A DNA stretch of 21,679 nucleotides from a virus, in the IMG/VR virus record IMGVR_UViG_3300027736_000280, positions 1 through 21,679 of that record. The stretch is one strand, 5' to 3'. Positions 6,083-16,422 of the stretch are shown here, piece after piece (positions within the stretch are counted from its first letter, which is position 1; every line of letters starts with the position of its first letter). The position numbers were made by a program, and so were the translations under genes. The notes below the pieces were generated by a model. It ran no database searches, was not told where the DNA came from, and saw only the letters and a program-made list of their open reading frames with translations.

Positions 6083-6209
6083 CTTAGTTCTATATATTCA
6101 AAGAAATATATCTGTAATATTTTTATGACAATTTCTTATATAATTATAGATAGGTAAATTAAAATAAATCCGTTATTAATTTAGAGTAAATCCAAAACCT
6201 ATTAATATT
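6083..6209 (-). promoter_or_regulatory. AT-rich leader/possible promoter region upstream of the gp25-like gene
   Basis: This 127-base gap is very AT-rich and contains no supportable reading frame. On the minus strand, just before the gp25-like ATG, it reads TTTCTTT then GAATATATAG (complement of 6090-6099), ending 7 bases before the start. The same ten bases, also preceded by TTTCTTT, stand before the 475-residue gene at 8438-8447. The placement is too close to the ATG for a -10 box serving a leadered transcript, so a 5'-UTR or translation element is as likely as a promoter. No strong terminator hairpin was seen after the 259-residue gene. Confidence 0.3.
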
Positions 6210-8434: not shown

Positions 8435-8682
8435 ATCCTATATATTCGTAAAAGAAAAGATAAACTCTTTTAGCTTTTTATATCTTTATTTCCCATTTGA
8501 ATTATTCATTACGAATGATAATAAACCACTATAGGCAATCACAAAAAAGAGTTTTATTTGTAAAAATGAATGAATTGTCAAAGGCGAACCATACTATGAA
8601 TGCAGACTTGGCATCATCAATTTCTCTGCAATCAATCCTTCGGAGAAAATGCAACATCGTCTTTAAAACAACGAAGTTCCAA
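8435..8682. other. 248-base gap downstream of metK, partly host-like in composition
   Basis: The gap has two parts. Bases 8435-~8500, next to the amidoligase-like gene, are AT-rich and hold GAATATATAG (complement of 8438-8447) three bases before that gene's ATG. Bases ~8520-8682, next to metK, have more balanced composition like metK itself. There the minus strand has a stop-free frame of about 50 codons, shifted relative to metK, including MLHFLRRIDCREIDDAKSAF. The plus strand is also open. I recognise neither. A 9-bp imperfect hairpin (8501-8522, loop ACG, one bulged T) lies at the boundary but lacks a U-run on either side, so it is not a convincing terminator. The host-like part was probably brought in with metK. 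Confidence 0.5.
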
Positions 8683-9945
8683 TTACTTAATTCCGAACCA
8701 CTTTTTATAGCTGTTCGAAGTCTCTGTCGTTTCCTCCCAAGGAAATAAATTCACCTTCATAACCTTCGGTTTTTGACCGTTCGGCATTTTGAACGTCTTC
8801 GTTACTGTCTTAGGCGTTCTTCCCATGTGACCGAAACTAGCCGTTTCCTTGTAGATAGGCGTGCGTAGGTTGAAACGCGTTTCAATCTCGTAAGGAGTCA
8901 TTCCGACGTTCTTCGAAATTAAACCTGCGATCTGACCGTCGTTCATTGCAACGAGAGCGGTTCCGTATGTATTCACATAAAAACCTACTGGCTTAGCAAC
9001 TCCAATGGCATAAGCCACTTGAACCAACACTTCGTCACATACTCCAGCCGCAACCAAGTTCTTCGAAATATGTCGCATGGCATAGGCTGCACTGCGGTCT
9101 ACTTTACTCGGATCTTTTCCGCTGAATGCCCCACCACCGTGAGCACCTTTTCCACCATAGGTATCTACAATAATCTTTCTTCCAGTTAATCCAGTGTCTC
9201 CATGAGGACCACCGATTACAAACTTCCCAGTTGGATTAACGTGCAACGCATACTTCCCATCAAACAACTTCTGAATGCGCTTAGGCTGCTTCTTCATAAC
9301 ACGAGGAATTAAGATGGTACGAACATCTTCCTTAATCTGCGCCAACATCTTCGCTTCTTTATCGAAATCATCGTGCTGTGTACTCACTACAATCGCCGAA
9401 ATACCCATTGGCTTGTGATCTTCTGAATACTCAACAGTTACTTGGCTCTTGGCATCTGGACGCAAATATTTCATTTGCTTTCCTTCTCTGCGAATAGCAG
9501 ACAACTCACGCAACAACGAATGCGCCAACTCCAACGGAAGCGGCATATAATTGTCGGTCTCGTTCGTTGCGTATCCGAACATCATTCCTTGGTCACCAGC
9601 ACCTTGATCTTTCTTGTTCTTCTTGTCAACACCTTGATTAATATCGGCAGACTGCTCATGAATGGCAGACAAAATTCCGCAAGACTTCGCTTCGAACATA
9701 TACTCACTCTTCGTGTATCCAATATCTGCGATAGTTCCTCGAATAATCTCTTGTAAATCAACATAAGCTGTCGATTTCACTTCTCCCGCAACAACAACTT
9801 GTCCTGTTGTTACCAAGGTTTCACAAGCCACCTTCGACTCGGGGTCTTGCGCTAAAAACGCATCAATTAATGCATCTGAAATTTGATCGGCTACTTTATC
9901 TGGGTGCCCTTCAGACACAGACTCTGATGTGAAAAAATATGACAT
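8683..9945 (-). CDS. metK: S-adenosylmethionine synthetase (methionine adenosyltransferase), complete
   Basis: MetK makes S-adenosylmethionine from methionine and ATP, releasing phosphate and pyrophosphate, as a cytoplasmic homotetramer. This 420-residue copy is intact: GHPDK at 13-17 (H14, D16, K17 as in E. coli), GAGDQG at 115-120, DAKSQ at 164-168, [13 protein letters not shown] at 245-257 and [19 protein letters not shown] at 270-288. The stretch [18 protein letters not shown] and the length (E. coli has 384) point to the Bacteroidota type. The gene differs sharply from its neighbours: GC is visibly higher, Leu is often TTG and Arg CGN, while flanking genes prefer TTA and AGA. The last 15 residues ([15 protein letters not shown]) look unlike the common ending. 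The leader GTAGATATG lacks a Shine-Dalgarno sequence. Recent capture from a host is the best explanation; a chimeric assembly must be excluded. In a phage it could supply S-adenosylmethionine for methylation or polyamine synthesis. Confidence 0.95.
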
Positions 9946-10084
9946 ATCTACTTATTTATTTTTCTATTAATTTGAATTCAACGACTCACTCCACTTGGTT
10001 ATTACTGGCGGTGTGAAATCTTTATTAGGTACTTGTTCGGGGTCATGTAAAACTCTAATTCCAAAACTCTATTAAATATTAATA
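9946..10084 (-). promoter_or_regulatory. Leader region of metK, including co-acquired upstream sequence
   Basis: This is the 139-base gap between the S1-domain gene and metK. The part next to the S1-domain stop is AT-rich and phage-like. The central part (9967-10068) has a stop-free frame described separately. The last ~20 bases before the metK ATG on the minus strand are A-rich (AGAAAAATAAATAAGTAGAT) with no Shine-Dalgarno sequence, as expected for a Bacteroidota leader. I see no convincing Bacteroidota promoter (TTG...TAnnTTTG) and no terminator hairpin, so metK is probably read from the surrounding phage operon. Confidence 0.35.
9967..10068 (-). pseudogene. Headless 33-codon reading frame, probable C-terminal remnant of the donor gene upstream of metK
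   Basis: On the minus strand the frame between an in-frame TAG (10071-10069) and a TAA (9969-9967) reads 33 codons ending with DPEQVPNKDFTPPVITKW then SESLNSN. There is no start codon in this frame (no ATG, GTG or TTG giving a sensible start), yet the peptide is charged, Pro-containing and low-bias, like the end of a real protein. GC and codon use resemble metK rather than the phage genes. The likely explanation is that the DNA captured with metK began inside the gene upstream of metK in the donor. I do not recognise the protein. Chance openness over 33 codons is possible. Confidence 0.35.
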
Positions 10085-14200: not shown

Positions 14201-16422
14201 ATTATTGCTGATTTGCTATCATCTTTTTTTATGATAGTCTCAATAAAATCATAAAAATTAGCAATATCAGGTTCTACTGTTTTAATGTTATTTATTTTTA
14301 TGAATTTATAGCTTTTTAAATAAGAAGGAGATGTATTAGCTAATAATCCTCCATTACCTGCATATTCGTTACCAATCTTTATTTTCTTTATATCAGGCTC
14401 AGAAACTTTGCTCATAGGCTTAGTCACTTTATTTTTAAAAGATATGGGTGCTGGTTTTTCTACTATCTCATACGGAAGCGGACGCCCATAATCTGTCATA
14501 AAAGAAAGCTCAAATTGTAATTCTCCTAAGCTGTTATTAAATTCTACTTTTTTAAATCTCACAGAGAATTCTTTTAATTTTTCCAAAAATTCATATCCAT
14601 AAGAATCATAAGTATTAACAGATATTCCATTAACCAAAGCACTTTTAAAAACCCTTTCAGCTGTATTGTCTGTTCCACTTGAACCTGAGCTACCACTAGT
14701 TCCTGAAGAACCTGAAGTACCACTTGAGCCTGATGATCCGCTAGAACCTGATGTTTCTGTAGCTACTGAACTGCCAGACGTGAATCCACTCTCGAGATCA
14801 TTATATGTTACATTTCTACCTAGTCTATTTTTTAAAGTGACAAGGTCAGCATCTCTTAAAGAAACCTTCTGATCTCTATCATTTATTAAATTAGATATAA
14901 ATCCTTTCTCTATTAATATAACTCTTATTGACTCTACATTTTTTTGAAAATCACTAACACCTTCAGAAACTGGCCATGATTGTGTTGTTGTATTATAACG
15001 TATAGGTGATTTATTAGCCTGTATTTGATAGTTAAATAGATTAGTTAATTCTATAGTATTTAATTCGGTATCAAGTCCACTTAAAAGAAAAATATCCTCA
15101 GTAAATATGTCGTTCTCTTGAATCAAATTTTTCTTGTCCGTATCATTTTTTTGTTTCTGATCAGTGATCTCTTTATCAATTTCTTTTATGCTATCATTAT
15201 ATGTTAATATCCTAATTGCAAGATCAAGATTACTAGGACCACCTCCTGGATTTACGGGGATTCTATTTCTCCAGTTTTCTGATAATGCCTTTTGATACTC
15301 ATATATTATTTCGTAGTGATAAAATATTTCTTCTAAACTTCTTTCAATAAGATTCCATCTAGCTAATAGTTTGCTATCGTCTTCAATCTTTTTGGATTTT
15401 TTTAATGCTGAATCTATACAAGCATCTATTGCATCCACATCAACTTGATTACCTACCGGATCTAATTCATCTCCGTTAGCATCTGAAAAATCATATTCCG
15501 GAGGATCACAAAAATCTTCAGTTAAGTTGTTAAATGTATCCACTGTTACTATAGGATCTCCTGTAATAGGATCTTCAGGAACACCAGGTAAACAATCATC
15601 ATCTAATATAGGGTCATCACCATCAGGAAAGAAATTTGAATCATAGTCATCTAATCTTTCTGATCTTTCTGATCTAATATTTTCACCAAGACCTTCAAAA
15701 TCACAAGGCTTTGAATTCTTATATTGTTTATCTAGTACACTATTAATCTTATCTAAAGCTTCCTTTTTAGTTTGTTTTTCACTTCCTATTTTAACATGTA
15801 CTACTTTTTTACCAGACATTATAAATTCCAAAGGAATTTTAAATCCAAGCACATTCATTTCTCTTTTCTTTCTAGCTCCTGAATTAGAAGGTTTACCTAA
15901 CAATAAAGGATCCATATTATCAAAAATTTTCTCATTAGCAATTTCTAAAAAATTAGGATTTTTTGCCTCAAGAAATTTAATAATACCTGAAGAAGGTATT
16001 TTGTATTGGTATTTAAAAGATTTAGTATTAGTTACAGTTACTCCAAGATCTTTCTCTGTTATTGCAGAATTATTTTTAAATTCGTCAGAAGATATTAATT
16101 CTTTATATAATTTTGGTTTTTCTTTTTTTAAAGATTCGAGTAATATAACACTGTACAAATCATCACCTTCATAATTACAAGCCAATTTCTCTATCATTTT
16201 CATAGAAATAGGAGGCTTCTGTGGTTCTAAGCTTGCTAATATATTCTCTACCTCTTTCTGATTTTTTTCAAGTTCCTTATTGAATCCCTCCTCCGATTGT
16301 AAATCATCATAAGGTAAATTTGATACTTTCCCGTCAGTTATTATATTGATTATTTCATCAGAGCTAACTGTTGTAAAATCCTTACTAAGGAGCTTATCTA
16401 TTCTTTTTTCTATACTTGCCAT
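11251..16422 (-). CDS. Giant virion protein of unknown function (1723 residues)
   Basis: I do not recognise the family. The N-terminal ~350 residues are helical and then acidic (around 255-330, rich in Asp with several Cys). A coiled-coil-like region follows near 350-460. Residues 558-584 are nine perfect SG[S/T] triplets, a flexible linker. Residues 898-953 contain seven Cys, including CPPKCC. Residues ~965-1080 are unusually rich in Pro, Ile and Phe, with IPLPFNLGIIVIFIPLIGGF near the middle, a possible membrane-inserting segment. The C-terminal 600 residues mix helices and Pro-rich turns. It starts one base after the spike gene stop and has one of the few good Shine-Dalgarno sequences here (GGGAGG, 5 bases before ATG, encoded within the end of the spike gene). 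Position after hub and spike suggests a baseplate/tail part. A tape-measure or ejected protein is possible because of the hydrophobic block, but gene order does not show it. Confidence 0.85.
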   Translation of the reverse strand: MASIEKRIDKLLSKDFTTVSSDEIINIITDGKVSNLPYDDLQSEEGFNKELEKNQKEVENILASLEPQKPPISMKMIEKLACNYEGDDLYSVILLESLKKEKPKLYKELISSDEFKNNSAITEKDLGVTVTNTKSFKYQYKIPSSGIIKFLEAKNPNFLEIANEKIFDNMDPLLLGKPSNSGARKKREMNVLGFKIPLEFIMSGKKVVHVKIGSEKQTKKEALDKINSVLDKQYKNSKPCDFEGLGENIRSERSERLDDYDSNFFPDGDDPILDDDCLPGVPEDPITGDPIVTVDTFNNLTEDFCDPPEYDFSDANGDELDPVGNQVDVDAIDACIDSALKKSKKIEDDSKLLARWNLIERSLEEIFYHYEIIYEYQKALSENWRNRIPVNPGGGPSNLDLAIRILTYNDSIKEIDKEITDQKQKNDTDKKNLIQENDIFTEDIFLLSGLDTELNTIELTNLFNYQIQANKSPIRYNTTTQSWPVSEGVSDFQKNVESIRVILIEKGFISNLINDRDQKVSLRDADLVTLKNRLGRNVTYNDLESGFTSGSSVATETSGSSGSSGSSGTSGSSGTSGSSGSSGTDNTAERVFKSALVNGISVNTYDSYGYEFLEKLKEFSVRFKKVEFNNSLGELQFELSFMTDYGRPLPYEIVEKPAPISFKNKVTKPMSKVSEPDIKKIKIGNEYAGNGGLLANTSPSYLKSYKFIKINNIKTVEPDIANFYDFIETIIKKDDSKSAIIKKIVDDRGILYGQLIEKSASPWLFFTAGERGDNDSRDPAKTRPSSFTKDGDPNKTFTDFWGKFKDKWDSKYKENKTRYIDPAMVALKNEARKAGEGLGKTLPTSDAIGVRIFENYFDVKQKYEQIQDIILYVAQKRAEIEGSLSPKNLSKSFSDVKCSGGDGQGNGNDPENCPPKCCGPAGTDFNSENYLTSAGPSSDCPTMYQKCWWKQFCKDLTKVGLLPYPNGLPPIEDPKYFLAAGPSVRLGLKYWPVGYLPPAFIPIPFANPVDGLPYIRIPLPMIWTTIPPILIPLPFNLGIIVIFIPLIGGFMPTPLVYIKEFIFGNSLFLTGIRGPRFIPRKSDPQIKDSLEKIKQALSFGIPDKLIPLPGFGLDNLDSATRVLGDIQGNLTKIFDSVPPPGNIQALRDLQGMERGLKEAIREKKRDYDKKYALIDLPAPNFEEDNEKLKGLIRERKNVLKKVINEYIDKGIPNPKSIYFPKDKDKLKIDIPGIIKSLRILKEMRASFIPTHCSDYINFKDEMREILKLMKIICPPKYFLENLEVSNVNKIFLRIEKDPRLMNEDEFSELVKEIKGVSLIITNIILRGNKFSVIKKMRKGAFSIIDDCGYQGNFLFPPIKITNSAPKALKFINVKNPIIEAIYLRLMEGMSKTQYKPEDFAKYVRYNGETPLLVIRVKDLKKLVAKKLGLSKRGPFDSERPLDKEEPLISKFPHPEGPLCCLESLNGGFGNAVAAFELPTVFPLKQDQISQTPGLGGMIQVTIPGKLIKSFMKESIIKLMDNGLLEKMIPEINDPLSPKFINMNPSDIQKITRNMVRDLFNPDSPDIPKFLNVIKTPTFPLARPTDMIEQALIGFGAPPAARIVFNNFWKYYKSLPKTPLGDIITLPAIELSASILNKIPWPLTVLIGRSVVNLLNPIAMSDDHPVWRRMSLKNVYYVIYLDEFLRSAADVSGLFKFFLGSADPIYPIPEFPSELKKALNIKKY
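14671..14751 (-). repeat. Nine tandem SG[S/T] triplets (Gly-Ser linker) in the giant virion protein
   Basis: The 81 bases encode residues 558-584 of the 1723-residue protein as nine consecutive triplets: SGS three times, SGT, SGS, SGT, SGS twice, SGT. At the DNA level the copies vary at synonymous positions (TCA/AGT/TCT/AGC for Ser), so the tract is not a simple microsatellite and seems to be kept at the protein level. It separates the helical N-terminal third from the rest and probably acts as a flexible tether. Confidence 0.9.

Follow-up and report, generated by a model that had tools for sequence, protein, structure and literature searches.

The window analysed here is the whole of a 21,679-base IMG/VR record and is by all appearances a piece of a larger phage genome. 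Its long genes lie on the minus strand and include those of baseplate, tail, and head-tail adaptor proteins. The baseplate-wedge protein has matches in 31 named phage records. Its amino acid identity is 39% with an uncultured 462-kb phage, 34–35% with Lak phages of Prevotella, and below 30% with phages of Flavobacterium, Tenacibaculum, and Sphingomonas. Uncultured phages of 635–735 kb also match, and Chryseobacterium phages are among the 31 records. These matches point to a large myovirus as the carrier, probably one infecting Bacteroidota and a distant relative of Lak and other huge phages. No known RNA family reached its gathering score in the window.

A metK gene with non-phage DNA on both sides lies between a gene with an S1 RNA-binding domain and a gene of unassigned function that encodes 475 amino acids (Table 1). 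The original prediction had placed metK inside a tail operon. Phage virion genes are indeed present in the window, but the exact site is intergenic: it falls in a terminator between the S1-domain gene and the 475-aa gene.

Table 1. Features of the metK insert and of the phage DNA around it (window coordinates)
Feature	Position	Strand	Basis
475-aa phage gene of unknown function, downstream phage flank	7007..8434	-	Protein search of viral contigs
Loop, 3' arm, and T-tract of the phage terminator; relative to L094, a G>A in the arm and one T missing	8543..8563	-	Comparison with L094
Inserted Bacteroidota-like DNA, 1,483 bp	8564..10046	-	blastn alignments with empty-site relatives break at exactly these bases in 5/5 site-sharing contigs (three distinct phages)
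Downstream part of the insert, 37% GC, without detected terminator	8564..8682	-	Fold z +1.46; no genome match reaches it
metK, predicted S-adenosylmethionine synthetase, 420 aa, intact	8683..9945	-	Pfam PF00438/PF02772/PF02773; E 8e-126 to solved MetK chains, signature blocks kept
Upstream part of the insert, 34% GC; contains an open frame of 25 codons, a length at chance level	9946..10046	-	Genome matches reach at most ~40 bp into it
5' arm of the phage terminator hairpin, 1.5 kb away from the 3' arm	10047..10056	-	Comparison with the empty site, fold, hairpin alignment
S1 RNA-binding-domain gene, 369 aa, upstream phage flank	10085..11194	-	Domain match; gene 95–99% identical in 5 empty-site contigs

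The product of metK (1,263 bp, stop codon included) is, judged by its domains, a full-length S-adenosylmethionine synthetase (MetK), which agrees with the earlier description of the gene as intact. The N-terminal, central, and C-terminal S-AdoMet_synt domains score 149.6, 146, and 191.6 bits, each above its cut-off, and solved MetK chains align over residues 3–384. Two signature blocks, one of them GAGDQG..., are kept in the alignment with a solved chain; we take them to be the ATP-binding and phosphate-loop signatures of MetK. The leader before the start codon is A-rich and by eye has no obvious Shine-Dalgarno sequence, which the phage leaders compared with it lack as well.

The borders of the insert were determined from relatives that have an empty site. 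The nearest one, contig L094, carries no metK. It is 99.4% identical to the window over 908 bp on one side of the insert and over the first 1,558 bp on the other, and its identity falls to 98.5% over 3,772 bp. The alignment breaks between window positions 10047 and 8563 identically in L094, L082, L083, L106, and L107. The last four also have the empty site and are 92–94% identical to the window. L082, L083, and L107 are mutually 99.99% identical and L106 is about 99% like these three, so the five contigs represent three distinct phages. No phage base was lost or duplicated at the insertion, and the insert consists of 101 bp, metK, and 119 bp. An island had been predicted at 8520–10068, with host-like flanks of about 120 bases upstream and about 160 bases downstream. 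The island and its foreign flanks on both sides stand, with the bounds moved to 8564–10046 and the flanks shortened to 101 bp and 119 bp.

We surveyed the site in viral contigs found by searches with both flanking proteins. Both genes are held by 82 loci, which belong to 59 distinct contigs (hand-counted by contig name; 23 of them were fetched twice, and some are near-copies of one phage), and metK is present at the junction in none of the 59. The gap between the two genes, extrapolated from alignment ends, is 168–170 bp in five contigs, 77–112 bp in 11, and 4–13 bp in 43, versus 1,650 bp in the window. Nor was metK detected in any of 23 related records of up to 153 kb that were searched whole and overlap with the 59, while the same search recovers it in the window's own record as a control. 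These records are fragments, so the absence of metK there is not absolute. The original prediction had proposed looking for the same junctions in related phages; by exact patterns no second viral contig has either of them, and the relatives carry the empty site instead.

A single record with unique junctions could also result from an assembly or library chimera, i.e., from a bacterial metK fragment falsely joined where a hairpin disrupted sequencing or assembly. Both procedures are known to have difficulty with hairpins. Neither junction occurs in any other viral contig (the search used exact patterns and near records may be omitted from it), and the right junction has two small differences from L094 no more than 20 bases away. 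On the other hand, the two joins meet at a single phage position where every phage base is present exactly once, and inspection by eye shows no overlap of assembler length between insert ends and phage flanks. Except for known small indels, the backbone to the left and right of the insert is collinear with the relatives. That two false joins arose independently at the same base is unlikely, and we consider the whole explanation improbable.

Composition sets the gene apart from its surroundings, as had been predicted from its higher GC and its different Leu and Arg codons. The GC3 of metK is 0.43, versus 0.16–0.22 in ten other genes longer than 120 codons and 0.33 in one gene of 82 codons. TTG makes up 0.57 of its Leu codons (at most 0.15 in other window genes) and CGN 0.79 of its Arg codons (at most 0.10). 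The RSCU distance to the phage genes is 1.86 for metK versus 0.43–1.24 for nine other large genes. Other metK genes are nearer to it, the closest at 1.29, and the 20 nearest include 13 from genomes and seven from viral contigs. The codon use of metK is thus foreign to the phage. The GC content of the insert flanks is also raised, to 34% upstream and 37% downstream versus 18% and 23% in the adjoining phage gaps. GC alone, however, is not a unique mark of the island: it reaches 0.44 at 17.7–18.3 kb, in a repeat-rich part of a 796-aa gene.

The upstream flank had also been described as preserving a headless reading frame. The frame carries no weight, since an open frame of 25 codons before the stop in the 101-bp flank is also found in 1387 of 4000 shuffles of the flank. 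The best peptide likeness near a genomic metK (locus L228, E 0.061) was equalled by two of 40 shuffled peptides and does not lie in an adjacent gene; we set it aside. Neither this frame nor the downstream frames gave any convincing gene remnant in 80 genome loci and 12 loci of the careful tree described below. Upstream open frames occur at 84 of 117 loci, and their best scores, attained by 1–2% of shuffles, are those expected from 84 tries.

Building a MetK tree with Bacteroidota sequences was another of the proposed checks. In a quick tree with 80 viral and 80 genome rows, the window MetK falls among the genome rows with weak support (89). In a quick tree of 90 rows it groups with the genome sequence G782 at 95, and a starred split (97) separates 71 genome rows and the window from 12 viral rows. 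A careful tree of 63 rows included eight of the 80 viral loci, 32 of the 80 genome loci, and 22 loci from later searches; its bootstrap had not fully settled, and G782 was entered twice. There the window MetK and 22 rows, all from Bacteroidota genomes, make up a starred clade of 23 (98/95). G782 is its sister (98/91), and all eight viral rows lie elsewhere. By these trees the window MetK is nested within cellular Bacteroidota MetK, apart from the eight viral rows included, and does not sit in a phage-only clade; its end branch is long (0.55).

The donor of the insert was searched for in 15 chosen genomes, the family of genome G027 (87 genomes), a phylum sample (395), an order sample (291), two further families (19 genomes, all already drawn, and 295), and plasmids; these sets overlap, and the donor was found in none of them. 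The best full-length MetK match has 78% amino acid identity. Partial matches, which cover the conserved N-terminal part, reach 80% over 300 residues and 85% over 118, and the best long DNA match of the insert is 73% over about 1 kb. In 132 genome loci, all matches are confined to insert positions 63–1316 of 1,483 and thus cover about 40 bases of the upstream flank at most and nothing of the downstream one. One Bacteroidota genome (G1018) has eight MetK matches, which could be multiple copies or fragments. The source would be an unsampled lineage of Bacteroidota, or metK resided elsewhere before it entered the phage. A long end branch is odd for a fresh copy of a typical host gene, and an unsampled donor would also explain it.

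The second of these options, in which metK came through another phage, a plasmid, or a mobile element and evolved there before entry, would account for the branch length, and 364 viral-contig stretches do encode a relative of MetK. Yet the eight viral rows stay outside the starred clade of the window in the careful tree, the 90-row tree parts 12 viral rows from the window, and even the tree with 80 viral rows groups the window with genome rows, if weakly. No plasmid or phage record closer than the chromosomal metK genes was found, and the GC3 of the gene is far from that of the host phage. We therefore see little probability in such a route. Cargo of a transposon or insertion sequence was rejected as well: there is no duplicated phage base, hence no target-site duplication, no transposase-like frame was seen in the insert, and the inverted arms around it belong to the phage terminator.

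The empty site of L094 reads AGAGTTTTAC-TTACAA-GTAAAACTCT, followed by T's. This hairpin folds at -11.7 kcal/mol (z -3.4; none of 200 shuffles is as low). All 16 contigs with a gap of at least 77 bp have a hairpin followed by a T-rich tail. When the nine distinct hairpin sequences were cut out and aligned, all ten stem pairs were kept (100% of 90 cells), versus at most 62% in slid controls. Four pairs are changed on both sides, a count that one of 500 shuffles attains, while the six further pair types in the alignment are not above the shuffles (6.8). Because of the stable hairpin, the T-tract, and the compensatory changes we take the empty site to be a real intrinsic terminator conserved in the clade.

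The insert lies at the 5' edge of the terminator loop, between the 5' arm and the loop, so in the window the two arms are 1.5 kb apart. No perfect hairpin of the empty-site size is left in the window, and the two terminator remnants fold no better than shuffled sequence. The downstream part of the insert forms no terminator-like fold (Table 1). No promoter of the insert's own was found by a sigma-70-type scan, which may not suit Bacteroidota; to our knowledge they do not use sigma-70 promoters in standard form. The 4–13 bp gap in 43 contigs has no room for a hairpin, so the clade probably tolerates read-through from the S1 gene.

Near the right junction the window differs from L094 by a G>A at 8557 and by the lack of one T at 8545. 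One reading is that the junction actually lies up to about 12 bases deeper in the 3' arm, the donor having supplied those bases and a short similarity having guided the join. The single G>A, seven bases from the junction, fits this reading, which also requires that six bases match the phage loop by chance. It is simpler to assume a substitution in an arm that is no longer constrained, so we prefer decay of the arm over donor-supplied bases and hold the shifted junction to be unlikely.

How often an insertion would hit such a place by chance was estimated from G001, a relative of 148,938 bp. It has nine perfect hairpins (stem of at least 10, loop of 3–8), six of them outside called ORFs, and 9.1% of its DNA is free of ORFs. 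By this arithmetic a random intergenic point falls inside the central six bases of such a hairpin about 0.3% of the time. The link between hairpin and insertion nevertheless comes from a single event assessed in hindsight. A general rule of insertion at hairpins was rejected: three other indels in the relatives, of seven or so visible, were examined, and none is in a perfect hairpin (one is a 401-aa gene with an 11-bp end repeat).

We consider it likely that the insert is a true and very recent capture of a host metK fragment, end-joined at a broken palindrome and transcribed by read-through from the S1 gene. The predicted recent capture is borne out by the 99.4%-identical empty site, the absence of metK from all related contigs tested, its non-phage codon use, and its place within cellular Bacteroidota in the tree. 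A large myovirus of Bacteroidota would have taken up a 1.5-kb fragment of a Bacteroidota chromosome with a complete metK. The AT-rich palindrome may have been opened by a hairpin nuclease of the SbcCD kind or by replication stress, and a fragment of degraded host DNA could then have been ligated into the break without homology. According to a passage in the literature, SbcCD cleaves hairpins 5' of the loop (PMC6265447), and the insert occupies this position. A polynucleotide kinase match is present in G001. Among eight related records, all of them fragments, two have an ATP-dependent DNA ligase domain and one an AAA_23 ATPase, the family to which SbcC/Rad50 belong; the closest relatives G001 and G016 match neither. 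A broader version holds that terminator palindromes serve these phages as capture sites, where a hairpin nuclease and a phage ligase produce breaks that take up degraded host DNA, the insert being instantly expressed because the terminator that would have silenced it is destroyed. We regard this generalization as very doubtful.

With the terminator split, transcription of the S1 gene would run on into metK, whose A-rich leader may be translatable as it stands, and MetK would supply S-adenosylmethionine late in infection, with methylation and polyamines as candidate uses. A role in DNA methylation was set aside: the PF01555 methylase was found in none of nine relatives, PF13489 gave matches in five of the nine, all below the cut-off, and a single Methyltransf_24 protein is among the families listed for G001. 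The G001 survey covered 143 ORFs of our own calling, 141 of them in split scans and some with PHROGs only, so that the families are the up to 25 listed and a methylase may have been missed. G001 (L293–L300), a related fragment of 149 kb, has a Gp23 capsid match and many sugar and amino-acid genes, including GDP-mannose dehydratase, DAHP and 3-dehydroquinate synthases, asparagine synthase, and a RimK-like ligase.

The insertion may instead be real and metK a neutral or mildly harmful passenger, without useful expression and destined to be lost. The gene is absent from every relative tested, no methylase demand is seen in them, a putative phage promoter motif is not present in the insert, and the capture is a single observation. 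Against this, metK is intact with its signature blocks conserved, and read-through is expected now that the terminator is split. Metabolic genes are abundant in a related phage, and unrelated phages have acquired metK repeatedly. We think a passenger somewhat less probable than not.

Phage-borne MetK had been called uncommon. It is less rare than that, since 135 of 50,697 phage records have a MetK match, some of which are probably the host gene beside a prophage. Passages on viromes of Lake Baikal, a karst lake, and groundwater name metK or S-adenosylmethionine synthetase among viral metabolic genes (PMC9611531, PMC8226683, PMC10980836). Prophages of H. pylori, as a passage on them states, often integrate beside the host metK (PMC11321410). 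The metK genes in Helicobacter phage records are in this light probably host genes beside the integration site, and we did not count them as phage genes; these records are a trap in counting phage metK.

The insert resembles several known systems in part. Phage-borne metK genes (PHROG 1569; Streptococcus Javan phages, Faecalibacterium phage FP_Brigit, freshwater viromes) likewise place a complete MetK in a tailed phage. However, viral MetK rows in the trees form clades of their own, whereas the window MetK is of host type, has non-phage flanks, and has a near-identical empty site. Morons are single added genes between conserved phage genes, with their own promoter and terminator. In the insert, too, a single foreign gene that differs in composition stands between conserved phage genes, but no promoter or terminator of its own was detected (by the sigma-70-type scan only for promoters), and it broke a phage terminator instead. 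Free-standing homing endonuclease genes of T4-like phages, as described in part of one source (PMC2988022), are also intergenic and affect the transcription of their neighbors. Unlike them, the insert has no endonuclease, its gene is metabolic, and nothing was seen to mobilize it. HNH endonuclease matches are present in a relative (four of 143 ORFs).

Phage-borne metK is thus already known, and what is unusual here is how fresh the capture is and that it splits a terminator so precisely. A literature search at the level of titles and passages, which is no proof of absence, found no title that deals with cargo taken up in the loop of a phage terminator. Host genes are numerous in phages, but their capture can seldom be seen as it happened because flanks and junctions wear away quickly; in the present case the insert, the unoccupied site of a phage 99.4% identical, and the exact joins are all readable. 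If the interpretation is true, a promoterless host gene would be expressed at once by landing in a terminator and thus abolishing it, which is a concrete and testable route.

Some further features were noted in the window and its relatives. The operon has a second variable gap at window positions 6183–6209, which lacks the 401-aa and 117-aa genes of the relatives. Both genes are present at this gap in L082 (11510–13119), and the 117-aa gene alone in L117 (10230–10646). The 401-aa gene of L082 has an 11-bp repeat at both ends; it may be a DUF7487 match and a homing endonuclease, which is a guess. The motif GAATATATA occurs at window positions 8439–8447 and 6091–6099, just 5' of two phage start codons, and also ahead of the 475-aa gene in several relatives. 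It is possibly a late-promoter motif, with a count in the window that is not above chance. Finally, alignments with relatives break at window positions 14674–14767, in a Ser/Gly-rich repeat of a 1,723-aa protein, which marks a variable repeat.
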